A stretch of DNA of 64,000 bases from Bdellovibrio bacteriovorus (GTDB lineage Bacteria > Bdellovibrionota > Bdellovibrionia > Bdellovibrionales > Bdellovibrionaceae), in assembly GCF_002208115.1 (NCBI RefSeq), contig NZ_CP020946.1, positions 2,542,001 to 2,606,000 of the forward strand, read 5' to 3'. The notes below the pieces were generated by a model. That model saw only the letters and a program-made list of their open reading frames with translations. It did no database searches and was not told the DNA's origin. Each line of letters starts with the position of its first letter. Position 1 is the stretch's first letter. Both the position numbers and the translations under genes were made by a program. Of the stretch, positions 15,140 through 18,805 are shown piece after piece.

Positions 15140-15919
15140 TTAATTAAGCATCTGTTGCACAATGATAATTCCACCCAAAAGCAAAACAAAGATCCCGAAG
15201 GCCGGCTTTAAGCGGGCCTCGGATGTATGCTGCGACCAGTAGGAGCCAACAAAAATTCCCGCCACGGCCAGAGCACCGACCCGCAAGAGCAAACCGAAGT
15301 CCATCGGTGTCCGGGCCCAAAGATCGCCAAAGAAACCCAGCAGTGAATTGGCGGCAATCACCCCCAAAGATGTACCAACGGCCACTTTCATTCCAAGCCC
15401 CGACATGCGCACCAAGGACGGCACGATCAGAAATCCACCACCAGCCCCCACAAAGCCCGTCACCGCCCCGACACCCAGTGCTTTCAGAGCAAACACTCCT
15501 GGCGCGGCAGGATCCTTCACTGCAGATGCACGAGGCAGCAACATCGCCAAGGCAGCCATCACCATGACCACGGCAAAAGAGCTTAAGATCACAACTTCTT
15601 TGTTAAATAGAACCGGTCCCCAAACCCACTGATCCGGAATTATCGGCAGCAACCAGCGACGCACCAACAACACCCCAAGAAAAGATGGCACTGCAAAATA
15701 AAATCCTGCTCGGAGATCCACCTGCCCTTGACGAAAATTCCGGACAAAGCCGATCAGGCTCGACACCCCCACCACAAACAATGAATAAGTCGTGGCCAAA
15801 GACGGCGGCAGCGAAAAGAAGTATACAAACAAAGGAACTGCCAGAATTGCACCGCCTCCGCCCAGAAGGCCTAAAGAAATCCCGACAAGACTGGCACCGA
15901 AATAACCCAACAGTTCCAT
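15140..15919 (-). CDS. TauE/SafE family sulfite or sulfur-anion exporter
   Basis: 259-aa membrane protein with the two family repeats: LGLLGGGGAILAVPLFVY near residue 15 and TGFVGAGGGFLIVPSLVRMS in the second half, each followed by hydrophobic helices. The family exports sulfite or related organosulfur anions. The longer frame from 16054 overlaps the upstream gene and is not needed; ATG 15919 gives the canonical N-terminus. Last gene of the minus-strand sulfur unit (rhodanese, two YeeE/YedE genes, tauE). Confidence 0.92.
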   Translation of the reverse strand: MELLGYFGASLVGISLGLLGGGGAILAVPLFVYFFSLPPSLATTYSLFVVGVSSLIGFVRNFRQGQVDLRAGFYFAVPSFLGVLLVRRWLLPIIPDQWVWGPVLFNKEVVILSSFAVVMVMAALAMLLPRASAVKDPAAPGVFALKALGVGAVTGFVGAGGGFLIVPSLVRMSGLGMKVAVGTSLGVIAANSLLGFFGDLWARTPMDFGLLLRVGALAVAGIFVGSYWSQHTSEARLKPAFGIFVLLLGGIIIVQQMLN

Positions 15920-15930
15920 AAAAAAACACC

Positions 15931-16371
15931 TCACCCTTTCACAGTGAAGCGGGCGTACAGACGATAAAGTCCCATTCCCGCAAGCATCGCAATCACAAAG
16001 TAGATCGCCATCTCCTGACCGGCTCCAGCAGAAGTCAGTGCCGGCCCCGGGCAAAATCCGCCCAAGCCCCAGCCCAAACCGAACAAAGCACTTCCGACCA
16101 CCAGGGGCCGGGTGACTTCCTTAGACACCGGCACATGCCACTGAGTGTCCAACAAAGGTGTGCGATGCCCTTTCATCCAACGATAACTCAGCATATGAAC
16201 CGGGATGGCGCCGATCATGACAAACATAAGTGACGGATCCCAGCCCTCACCCAACTGCAGAAAGCCGATGACCTTCTGGGGCTGAGTCATACCCGAAACT
16301 CCCAGTCCGATCGCAAATATCAGTCCCACCACAAAAGCCGCCGCAGTCTGTTTCATAGATGTTTTATTCAT
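15931..16371 (-). CDS. YeeE/YedE-type sulfur transport half-protein (DUF6691-like)
   Basis: 146-aa membrane protein, one half of the split YeeE/YedE pair that imports thiosulfate or related sulfur compounds. Family features are GLGVSGMTQPQKVIGFL near the N-terminus and FGLGWGLGGFCPGPAL with a conserved Cys near residue 100. ATG 16371 follows the upstream stop by 1 nt, while the in-frame start at 16392 would overlap it. Acts with the gene immediately upstream. Confidence 0.92.
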   Translation of the reverse strand: MNKTSMKQTAAAFVVGLIFAIGLGVSGMTQPQKVIGFLQLGEGWDPSLMFVMIGAIPVHMLSYRWMKGHRTPLLDTQWHVPVSKEVTRPLVVGSALFGLGWGLGGFCPGPALTSAGAGQEMAIYFVIAMLAGMGLYRLYARFTVKG

Positions 16372-16372
16372 A

Positions 16373-16792
16373 TCAGCCTCCCACCAATGCATTAAAGAGT
16401 GTGGCCGTCAGCATTCCTATCACCATGAATGTCGCGGTCGCCACCAGCGAGCGCACGGAAAAGCGCGCAATGCCGCACACACCATGACCACTGGTGCACC
16501 CACTGCCCATCACCGTGCCAAAGCCCACGATCAAACCGGCAATCAGAACCACGCCCACGGATCGGCCTGAGGTGTTCACGAACATATCCGGCTGCAAAGC
16601 ACCCAACGCCAGTCCTCCGATCAACAGCCCCAGGATAAAGGCACCTCGCCACAGATCCTTGCGAACATCGCCGATAAATCCATTCACAATGCCACTGATA
16701 CCCGTGACCCGGCCGTTCAGAATCAACATCAACGAGGCCGCAAGGCCGATCAAAGCGCCGCCCGTCAAAGCCATCAAAATACTGTTCATCAT
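16373..16792 (-). CDS. YeeE/YedE-type sulfur transport half-protein
   Basis: 139-aa membrane protein, the partner half. It has GALIGLAASLMLILNGRVTGISGI and then GFGTVMGSGCTSGHGVCGIARFS, whose GCTSGHGVCG segment carries the conserved Cys residues that bind sulfur compounds in this family. Four to five hydrophobic segments. Its start overlaps the rhodanese stop (ATGA). The split pair plus rhodanese suggests uptake of thiosulfate and transfer of its sulfane sulfur. Confidence 0.92.
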   Translation of the reverse strand: MMNSILMALTGGALIGLAASLMLILNGRVTGISGIVNGFIGDVRKDLWRGAFILGLLIGGLALGALQPDMFVNTSGRSVGVVLIAGLIVGFGTVMGSGCTSGHGVCGIARFSVRSLVATATFMVIGMLTATLFNALVGG

Positions 16793-17112
16793 TTTCCTGC
16801 TCCTTTAGTCACTGCATATCCCATTTCATTCCAGCGTAGCATTCCACCCACCATGTTGTAGGTGCTGGTGAATCCCATCTCTTCACTGAGAAGTGTGGTC
16901 TGTCCTGATCTTGCCCCACTCCGACAAACAAAGACAATGTTCTCGGACGGGTTCAGGGTTTTCAAAAATTCCAGCAGTGCAGGGCCGAGCGGACGCAGCT
17001 CGGTGCCCGCAATATGCCCCAGCTCCCCGGTGTATTCTTCGGGGGTGCGCACATCCACCAGACGGAATTCGTTCATTCTTTCTTTGAGTTGTTCACAGCT
17101 TATTTCACGCAT
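16789..17112 (-). CDS. Single-domain rhodanese
   Basis: 107-aa sulfurtransferase that moves sulfane sulfur to thiol acceptors. The active-site loop CRSGARS follows IVFV, and VDVRTPEEYTGELGHIAG is the CDC25/rhodanese entry motif. No signal peptide, so cytoplasmic. GAGGA precedes the ATG. First gene of the minus-strand sulfur unit and directly downstream of operator 1. In similar clusters it works with persulfide dioxygenase by making glutathione persulfide. Confidence 0.94.
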   Translation of the reverse strand: MREISCEQLKERMNEFRLVDVRTPEEYTGELGHIAGTELRPLGPALLEFLKTLNPSENIVFVCRSGARSGQTTLLSEEMGFTSTYNMVGGMLRWNEMGYAVTKGAGK

Positions 17113-17173
17113 AGCAGTCCTCGCTTATTTGGCTTCACAGGACTTCATCCTAAGGCTATCCTCGGTCTGGGTG

Positions 17174-17191
17174 TTATGCCCGGGGACATAA
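17174..17191. promoter_or_regulatory. Operator 1, palindrome of the TTATGTCC-N2-GGACATAA type
   Basis: An 18-bp imperfect palindrome; the half-sites match at 7 of 9 positions. Its centre (about 17182.5) is 32 bp, about three helical turns, from operator 2. A TAGGAT -10-like hexamer on the minus strand at 17152-17147 would put the centre near -42 for the rhodanese unit, the class II activation position of Crp/Fnr proteins. A Crp/Fnr gene lies 1 kb away. Confidence 0.65.
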
Positions 17192-17205
17192 AGAAAAACC
17201 TTCTC

Positions 17206-17223
17206 TGATGTCCCAGGACATAA
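17206..17223. promoter_or_regulatory. Operator 2, palindrome of the TTATGTCC-N2-GGACATAA type
   Basis: Second copy, including a perfect inner palindrome ATGTCC-CA-GGACAT; half-sites match at 7 of 9. The centre (about 17214.5) lies near -42 relative to a start site inferred from the TATAAT at 17245-17250, so it fits activation of the metallo-hydrolase gene. Confidence 0.68.
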
Positions 17224-17244
17224 CTCAGGGGCCGGTCTTTGTTC

Positions 17245-17250
17245 TATAAT
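17245..17250 (+). promoter_or_regulatory. -10 element TATAAT of the persulfide dioxygenase gene
   Basis: Consensus TATAAT 48 bp before the ATG. No good -35 hexamer is seen at 16-18 bp spacing (AACTCA/TAACTC), as expected of a promoter that needs an activator bound at operator 2. Confidence 0.6.
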
Positions 17251-17297
17251 GAACCATAGCCAGAAACCTGAGACAGGCTTTCAGCAGGAGGTTTTCC

Positions 17298-18158
17298 ATG
17301 AAACTGCAAATTCAGCACTTCTTTGACAGCGTCACTTCGACGCTGACCTATGTGGTTTATGACCAGGACACACGGGATGCCGTGGTGATTGACCCCGTAT
17401 GGGACTATGATCCGGCATCGGGTAAACTCTCAACAAAATCAATGGATCCGGTGGTGGCGTTTGTGAAAGAGATGAACCTGCATCCTCACTATGTCATGGA
17501 AACCCATGCCCATGCGGATCACCTGTCCAGCTCTCAACTTTTTAAAAACTTCTTCCCGGACATCAAGGTCGCCATCGGCGAACGCATCACCGAAGTGCAA
17601 AAGGTGTTTAAGAAGGTCTTCAATATGAACGACCTGAACACATCCGGTTCTGACTTTGACATCCTGCTAAAAGAAGGCGAAGTCCTGCAGGCGGGATCGT
17701 TGAAAATTAAAACCCTGTTCACACCGGGCCACACTCCGGCGTGCGCGTCTTATCTGATTGAGGATGCGATCTTTACCGGGGATGCGCTGTTTATGCCTGA
17801 TTCCGGCACGGGCCGCTGCGACTTCCCGGCAGGAAGTGCTGAAAATCTTTACGACTCGGTCACTGGAAAAATTTATTCCCTTCCGGAAAACACCCGGATT
17901 TTTGTCGGTCATGACTATCAGCCCAATGGCCGGGCGTTGATGTATCAAACAACCGTCAATGAAGAAAAAAACCAGAACATCCAACTGAAAGGTCACACCC
18001 GCAAGGAAGACTTTGTGAAGTTTCGCCAAGAGCGTGATGCCACGCTGGCAGCCCCTAAACTGCTTCTGCCAAGCATTCAGGTGAATATCCGCGCGGGCCA
18101 GCTTCCGGCGGCGGAGGAAAACGGCACCCGGTATTTGAAGTTACCCCTGCGCCAGTAA
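17298..18158 (+). CDS. Persulfide dioxygenase-like metallo-beta-lactamase-fold hydrolase
   Basis: 286-aa MBL-fold protein. Metal ligands are visible in THAHADHLSS (HxHxDH), GHTPACAS, the Asp of FTGDALFMPDSGTGRCDF and VGHDYQPNGR. The GTGRCDF and GHDYQ patterns are those of ETHE1/Blh-type persulfide dioxygenases, which oxidise glutathione persulfide to sulfite. An AGGAGG ribosome-binding site precedes the ATG. Sulfite made here could leave through the TauE exporter of the divergent unit. The last 18 nt overlap the convergent Crp/Fnr gene. Confidence 0.9.
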   Translation: MKLQIQHFFDSVTSTLTYVVYDQDTRDAVVIDPVWDYDPASGKLSTKSMDPVVAFVKEMNLHPHYVMETHAHADHLSSSQLFKNFFPDIKVAIGERITEVQKVFKKVFNMNDLNTSGSDFDILLKEGEVLQAGSLKIKTLFTPGHTPACASYLIEDAIFTGDALFMPDSGTGRCDFPAGSAENLYDSVTGKIYSLPENTRIFVGHDYQPNGRALMYQTTVNEEKNQNIQLKGHTRKEDFVKFRQERDATLAAPKLLLPSIQVNIRAGQLPAAEENGTRYLKLPLRQ

Positions 18159-18737
18159 TTTCTTTTTGTCGAGAATGATGATTTCCCGCCCACGCTGCTC
18201 AATCAGCCCGTCTTCCACGAAGCGGGCCAGGGTGCGGATCACGGTGGGCGTGGTGGTCCCGCAGAAATCGGCGATCTCTTGCCGGGTCCACGAGTATTCA
18301 GGATGAAGTTCTTTTAAGTACACCACCGCTTCAGCAATACGCGCCGGGGCGTCTTTTTCACTCAACGTCAGTTGCTTGGCCTCGGCCCGGCGCAGTTCAA
18401 TCGCCAAAGTCTCCAAAAGCTTTTCCGCGAGGTCACAGTTGCCCTTCATCTGCTGGCGCATTTCGTTTTTGCTCATAACACGAAGGACGCTGTCATCAAT
18501 CACCGTGGCGGTGGCATGATAGGGTTCATTGGCAAACAGGCTGCGATGTCCAAAGATCTGGCCCTCACGAAACAGGCGCACCAGATGGTCCTTACCCGAC
18601 TCGCCCCACAACCCCAGACCCACCAGGCCTGATTCGACAAAATAAATATTCTGGGGTGTTTCACCAGCACGATACACCACGTCCCCGCGGCGGAAGTTTT
18701 TTGCGACGGCTTGAGAAAACAGATCTTTGAATTCCAT
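18141..18737 (-). CDS. Crp/Fnr-family transcription regulator
   Basis: 198 aa: a cyclic-nucleotide-binding-type beta-roll (FRRGDVVYRAGETPQNIYFV, EGQIFGHRSLF) then a winged helix with recognition segment RQEIADFCGTTTPTVIRTLARF. The Fnr iron-sulfur Cys cluster is absent; the only Cys are near 102 and 159, so a thiol or persulfide sensing mode is conceivable but unproved. Placed beside the sulfur genes, it is the best candidate to bind the two operators. A single half-site GGACATAA lies at 18767-18774 upstream of its own start, allowing autoregulation. Confidence 0.9.
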   Translation of the reverse strand: MEFKDLFSQAVAKNFRRGDVVYRAGETPQNIYFVESGLVGLGLWGESGKDHLVRLFREGQIFGHRSLFANEPYHATATVIDDSVLRVMSKNEMRQQMKGNCDLAEKLLETLAIELRRAEAKQLTLSEKDAPARIAEAVVYLKELHPEYSWTRQEIADFCGTTTPTVIRTLARFVEDGLIEQRGREIIILDKKKLLAQG

Positions 18738-18775
18738 ACTGTCATTAAATCACAAAACCGGGTTTTGGACATAAA

Positions 18776-18805
18776 AAAAGCCGGGCTGTTTCCAACCCGG
18801 CTTTT
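18776..18805 (-). terminator. Rho-independent terminator after dnaK
   Basis: Perfect AAAAGCCGGG / CCCGGCTTTT stem with a 10-nt loop and a T-run on the minus strand, 21 bp after the dnaK stop and before the Crp/Fnr gene. Confidence 0.9.

Follow-up and report, generated by a model that had tools for sequence, protein, structure and literature searches.

The Crp/Fnr-family protein encoded at 18141-18737 on the minus strand is predicted from sequence comparisons, with a probability of roughly 80%, to be a dedicated class II activator of the sulfur module beside which its gene lies in the window, that is, in the whole 64,000-nucleotide stretch of Bdellovibrio bacteriovorus DNA analysed here. This probability applies to the dedicated activator and does not extend to its signal. 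The observation behind this reading, two palindromes in the divergent promoter of the module, is real, and the main regulatory reading is well supported; a half-site upstream of the regulator gene as a regulatory element, and persulfide as the signal, are not. The genes follow each other in the order TauE (−), YeeE halves (−), rhodanese (−), PDO (+), Crp/Fnr (−) and DnaK (−). Leftwards, all on the minus strand, are found a single-domain rhodanese with a CRSGAR loop (16789-17112, PF00581), a YeeE/TsuA-type half transporter (16373-16792, PF04143, under the cut-off of the TsuA model NF052577), a second YeeE/YedE half (DUF6691, 15931-16392, PF20398) and a TauE/SafE sulfite exporter family protein (15140-15934, PF01925). 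Rightwards, the persulfide dioxygenase (PDO; 17298-18158, plus strand, PF00753) is an ETHE1/Blh-type MBL protein that scores 344 bits against NF040641, under the cut-off of 625, and aligns with the C-terminal portion of that Blh model. Its gene and that of the Crp/Fnr protein overlap tail to tail.

Both palindromes, TTATGCCCGGGGACATAA (operator 1, 17174-17191) and TGATGTCCCAGGACATAA (operator 2, 17206-17223), are unstranded and 18 bp long, and each differs from TTATGTCC-N2-GGACATAA by one mismatch. They lie inside the intergenic region 17113-17297, and their starts are 32 bp apart; the coordinates and the pattern match were verified, as was the original prediction that they stand between rhodanese/YeeE/TauE and PDO. 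On the grounds of uniqueness, presence in relatives and −10 spacing, operator 1 was assigned to the rhodanese/YeeE/TauE promoter and operator 2 to the PDO promoter. With up to 3 mismatches allowed, the two palindromes were the sole matches in the 64-kb window, and shuffled windows gave a mean of 0.07 matches at the same threshold (at least 2 matches in 1 shuffle of 100). In the complete 3.77-Mb genome, a search at 1 mismatch or less returned the two palindromes and no others. The third-best match, a single one with 2 mismatches, is within a coding sequence, and matches at up to 3 mismatches showed no excess over a reversed-pattern control (8 versus 9 per strand). A wider regulon in the window's genome is therefore unsupported, the 2-mismatch match being intra-ORF and the 3-mismatch matches at control level; throughout the genus as well, pattern matches outside the module were no commoner than with the reversed control. 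That the genome has no further sites is consistent with the module being self-contained, as had been proposed.

The inferred −10 of PDO, TATAAT (17245-17250, plus strand), is 21 bp from operator 2, and the inferred −10 of the rhodanese operon, TAGGAT (17147-17152, minus strand), an element kept in relatives, is 21 bp from operator 1. Reckoned from this spacing, each palindrome of the window is centred at about −42.5 of its own promoter, and no −35/−10 pair was reported by a promoter scan at either of them. The spacing recurs in relatives. Among 50 site-gene pairs, a count from which the near-copies L040 and L047 were excluded, a TAnnnT hexamer starts 20 bp from the palindrome edge in 16 and 21 bp in 15 (31/50 together), and each of the remaining offsets between 8 and 39 bp is found in 0 to 5 pairs. 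With spacers of 20 and 21 bp, the palindrome is centred at −41.5 or −42.5, where class II activators bind. Judged by −10 spacing alone, these operators are thus placed like those of class II promoters, centred at about −41.5, and the earlier placement near −42 is borne out as an inference. The number of palindromes varies among the regulator-bearing congeneric loci: G000 (the window's own genome), G006, G016 and G021 have a separate palindrome for each promoter, and the other six a single palindrome between the promoters, which in G017 has a 20-bp spacer to either −10 box. The rhodanese/YeeE promoter also contains a ATAGCNTTAGGAT-like element (17147-17162), a similar form of which is present in L043, L049, L050 and L052, from genomes without the regulator and the palindromes.

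Absence of the palindromes at orthologous loci had been named beforehand as an outcome that would speak against them. Within the genus, the sites follow the presence or absence of the regulator. The genus set comprised 24 genomes, the window's own included, 19 of which have an informative locus. The regulator lies beside PDO in 10 of these 19 loci, and in each of the 10 the divergent promoter contains a palindrome, scoring 12 to 16 of 16 positions with a shuffle p ≤ 0.04 each; it is absent from the other 9, none of which reaches 12/16. G003, G004, G008, G013 and G015 were uninformative, with a diverged regulator or this PDO missing; a site is present in L074 (G004), and none at p ≤ 0.05 in L059 (G013), L073 (G008) and L101 (G003). 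On a genus tree built from three proteins (PDO, DnaK and acetyl-CoA synthetase), parsimony gives 5 changes of the regulator label, at least 3 of them across well-supported branches. G002, which is nested between G016 and G000/G006 on this tree and is 98% identical in DnaK and acetyl-CoA synthetase, has lost the two sites along with the regulator, rhodanese and TauE. In G011 (L051), the regulator and a palindrome accompany one of two PDO-YeeE modules that lie about 4 kb from each other, and both are missing from the second. The PDO frame of G007 (L016/L054) is interrupted by one internal TAG stop and may be a pseudogene.

Outside the genus, a scan of genome contigs based on an alignment of the regulator recovered 38 loci, with PDO, YeeE or TauE within 6 kb in 30 of them. 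A phylum search found regulator matches in 143 of 290 genomes. Forty matches were fetched, mostly the highest-scoring among those listed and from outside the genomes already examined; those resembling FNR in known genomes were left out. Module genes are present in 37 of these 40 loci (22/24 among the newly met loci) and in 0 of 8 FNR-type loci. The module-linked regulators form one clade apart from the FNR-type paralogs (SH-aLRT 96). The window-derived pattern was found at p ≤ 0.04 in 23 of 38 regulator-bearing loci (one of which gave 0.05 on a rerun) and at 13/16 or better in 14. Among 25 loci scored as regulator-less, none reaches 13/16 and 6 have p ≤ 0.05: L126 contains a truncated regulator copy, the genome of L063 has an unlinked regulator, and the other four score 11/16. 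L127 and L128, in the same group, hold truncated regulators. In L063 (G029), the palindrome TTATAACCTGGGTTATAA is located 21 bp from the −10 upstream of PDO, and a regulator of the same clade is encoded on another contig. A motif-free search for any 5-mer dyad returned TGTGC-N2-GCACA in 10 of 29 distant loci and 0 of 21 controls, with a shuffle maximum of 3. We conclude that the palindromes are kept at regulator-bearing orthologous loci, the check that had been called for in related genomes.

The regulator belongs to the Crp/Fnr superfamily, PF00027 (cNMP-binding-type beta roll) and PF13545 (helix-turn-helix) both scoring above cut-off. Its AF2 model has a pLDDT of 88, and a fold search with this model gave CRP/GlxR as the best PDB folds (TM 0.85-0.9 by query length), generic neighbours that yield no specific name; NCBIfam equivalogs all scored far under cut-off on the protein (FixK, 59 bits of 300). 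Domain and fold searches did not recover the ArsR winged-helix fold, and an ArsR-family SqrR/BigR identity was rejected. As first proposed, the Crp/Fnr gene beside the palindromes encodes no N-terminal Fe-S Cys cluster: C101 and C159 are the only cysteines, which rejects a [4Fe-4S] FNR oxygen sensor. FNR-type DNA specificity was rejected in the window as well, the recognition helix (TTTPTVIRTL) having P164 and R168 and the best FNR box scoring 6/10. The place of the CRP cAMP phosphate cassette is occupied in the alignment by FGHR..YH. Eleven matches to the regulator were found in the window's genome. The best other match (G000:C1:1294138-1294701), at 43% identity, is likely FNR, because it has the Cys cluster and adjoins nrdD and nrdG. 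FNR paralogs in the alignment retain the cluster Cys columns, with the exceptions of G012 and G022, each without Cys. In L086 (5960-7316), two tandem Crp/Fnr genes are found beside nrdD/nrdG, and the one with the Cys cluster is likely FNR.

A second type of operator emerged in one family of the phylum. The Glu of the recognition helix reads the FNR half-site, and 18 regulators of this family, a Halobacteriovoraceae record included, have it (E164; support 98), in a clade nested within that of the module-linked regulators. Their module promoters have a TTGAT-N4-ATCAA box at 9/10 or better in 17 of 18 cases, and a palindrome at 13/16 or better in none of the 18. For the 44 regulators without this Glu (non-E), from which the truncated L122 and L126 were excluded, the palindrome reaches at least 13/16 in 21 loci, and the FNR box at least 9/10 in 4. 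By shuffle test at p ≤ 0.05, the FNR box was detected in 13/18 E164 versus 3/44 non-E loci, and the window pattern in 0/18 versus 24/44. Neither the FNR box nor the window pattern was chosen after viewing relatives, unlike a generalised pattern containing S. At p ≤ 0.05, 20 of the 44 non-E loci are without a site by the window pattern and 17 by the generalised one, mostly diverged members such as L073, L101, L108, L114, L115, L117, L123 and L124. One locus with a 16/16 site by the generalised pattern, together with the regulator, TauE and PDO, is L120, a MAG labelled Gammaproteobacteria, either a transfer or a mislabelled contig.

The E164 branch thus has FNR-type specificity, helix Glu and TTGAT-N4-ATCAA operator together, and on the Bdellovibrio side E164 is lost and the operator is TTATGTSC-N2-GSACATAA. 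The distance to the promoter is the same on both sides: the −10 starts 22 bp downstream of the FNR box in 19 of 28 box-bearing promoters (other offsets at most 4), which is 29 bp from centre to −10 and matches the palindrome type, so that for both operator types the centre is 29-30 bp from the −10. Because the Glu was lost once on the tree (support for the non-Glu side 69), the association of helix and operator counts as a single change. Operator and recognition helix look, from these sequences, as if they had co-evolved through one event.

Upstream of the crp gene itself, the half-site TTATGTCC that had been noted is present (minus strand, 18774-18767), but it is neither conserved nor compatible with the operator geometry. 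An exact copy is found in only 2 of the 10 congeneric loci, those of G000 and G006, which are nearly identical. The half-site shares bases with the T-tail of the dnaK terminator, and its distance does not fit. Autoregulation through this half-site was rejected for these reasons of conservation and geometry. The dnaK terminator (18776-18805) precedes the crp gene. A −10-like box, TTTAAT, stands six bases ahead of the ATG of crp (18735-18749, minus strand), and the mRNA may be leaderless.

Which signal the regulator would sense was approached through its residues. No Cys is invariant in the alignment of the regulator family. C159 is present in 36 of 44 non-Glu and 4 of 18 Glu regulators, and C101 and C159 are both found in 10/10 close orthologs. 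E164 regulators have C93 in 12/18 and C97 in 13/18, and in many of them (L186-L203) these two positions make a C-x3-C pair that immediately precedes the dimer helix and might serve as a dithiol sensor. Of the candidate residues, H64 and H74 vary least, each being present in 61 of 62 regulators; the constancy of H64 may be favoured in part by the search pattern of the contig scan, and the matches in the 290 genomes were obtained without that pattern. A two-Cys persulfide switch conserved in the whole family was rejected, no Cys being kept throughout. With no Cys kept across the whole family, the gene content of the module is what points to the signal: it is somewhat better than an even bet that it is a sulfane-sulfur species, and direct Cys persulfidation of the regulator is unlikely, without being negligible.

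Operator conservation, the tracking of the regulator, promoter geometry and the coupled helix and operator types were computed; from these we infer a protein that would bind the sites, activate and sense sulfane-sulfur species. The regulator would belong to a clade of Bdellovibrionota, related to FNR, without Fe-S Cys cluster and dedicated to the sulfur module. The 18141-18737 protein would bind both palindromes as a dimer at about −41.5/−42.5 and, once bound, replace the −35 element and activate both divergent promoters, the leftward one driving rhodanese, the two YeeE/YedE halves and TauE, the rightward one PDO. One family would have kept the FNR-type helix Glu with TTGAT-N4-ATCAA boxes; on the Bdellovibrio branch the Glu would have gone and the operator become TTATGTSC-N2-GSACATAA, at unchanged distance to the −10. 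A bolder version, which we put forward tentatively and give less than even odds, is that in Bdellovibrionota a clusterless FNR relative was made into a sulfane-sulfur-responsive class II activator of PDO/YeeE/TauE, the first such Crp/Fnr member, and that operator and helix of the Bdellovibrio branch then switched together, Glu being lost and the TTGAT box turned into the TTATGTSC palindrome with the spacing kept, one palindrome serving two back-to-back promoters in some species and being doubled in others. If true, the helix/operator switch would keep FNR from acting on the sulfur module.

Short inverted repeats are by no means rare, and a repeat search listed several, yet the idea that the palindromes arose by chance is refuted by conservation and co-occurrence, as well as by genome-wide uniqueness, the motif-free dyad search and the spacing, and retains practically no probability. 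Another Crp/Fnr protein might bind them, for instance the Fe-S FNR paralog, which would place the island under oxygen control. A search of the genome does give 11 matches to the regulator, the operators of the E164 branch are textbook FNR boxes, and the TTGAT boxes of that branch could be bound by a genuine Fe-S FNR. However, an FNR-type paralog is also present in congeneric genomes that have no adjacent regulator and whose loci have no palindromes, and the paralog helix keeps E164 (TTPETVIR), yet the module promoters of the window score at most 6/10 for the FNR box; we consider binding by such a protein very improbable.

A repressor whose sites overlap the promoter and which is released by sulfur species, in the manner of BigR/SqrR, has somewhat more in its favour and is still improbable. 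Known PDO modules are often controlled by repressors (CstR, SqrR/BigR), according to the available excerpts of PMC9774590 and PMC12170894, but the sites here are in the class II activating position, no −35/−10 pair was reported at the inferred promoters, and 29-30 bp to the −10 are held in two operator types. The alternative that comes closest to even odds, while staying below them, keeps regulator and sites as proposed and changes the signal, to nitric oxide, redox state, a thiol such as glutathione, or another ligand of the beta-roll pocket. The lack of an invariant Cys, the constancy of H64 and H74, and the activation of the Crp relatives Vfr and PrfA by glutathione (PMC7315123, in the part available) all favour it; against it stand the sulfur-specific content of the module in nearly all loci, the presence of at least 2 Cys in 49 of 64 regulators, and the pair C101 and C159 in all close orthologs.

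Among the members of the phylum are predators, which would have to deal with sulfur set free from their prey. If a PDO module does have its own Crp/Fnr activator, this would be another evolutionary solution to the control of sulfide and persulfide. The larger result is a dedicated regulator found phylum-wide, whose operator and helix seem to have changed in step while the geometry was fixed; with two operator types on one regulator tree, it offers a natural case of transcription factor specificity and promoters changing jointly while the geometry stays constant.

Searches of the open-licence literature, which could miss a paper available by subscription, turned up no publication on control of a PDO module by a Crp/Fnr protein. 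The excerpts of two reviews name CstR, SqrR/BigR, PigS and FisR as sulfide/persulfide regulators, which are of the ArsR, CsoR and sigma-54 (Fis) types (PMC9774590, PMC12170894); the terms 'Crp' and 'Fnr' yielded no such regulator in these excerpts. The nearest modules are those of BigR, which, in the parts of the papers available, controls the yeeE-yedE-pdo2 operon in Acinetobacter (PMC7315123) and is encoded in a bigR-blh-TauE operon in Xylella and Agrobacterium (PMC5823870). These operons resemble the window module in having PDO or Blh, YeeE/YedE, TauE and a rhodanese function (PMC7315123, PMC5823870), but BigR is a Cys-pair repressor of the ArsR family, whereas the window has a Crp/Fnr protein whose sites are placed as for activation. 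FisR of Cupriavidus and Acinetobacter, as described in the excerpts at hand, responds to sulfide and shares the activation of a PDO gene; it is a sigma-54 activator, unrelated in fold and promoter type to the window system. The CRP of Acinetobacter baumannii is a Crp protein reported to be persulfidated in sulfide-treated cells (PMC7315123), but it is of the cAMP type and, in the portion of that paper available, no link between it and a PDO module is described. FNR, FixK and FnrN belong to the same superfamily. The FixK/FnrN consensus is TTGANCNNGATCAANG (PMC4999443, available text), and FixK2 is controlled by the oxidation of a lone Cys near its DNA-binding domain (PMC9104804, available text). 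The E164 branch shares with these proteins the TTGAT-N4-ATCAA operators and the class II spacing. The regulator studied here differs in having no Fe-S Cys cluster and a sulfur module as its target, and in the Bdellovibrio branch it also has a different operator and no helix Glu.
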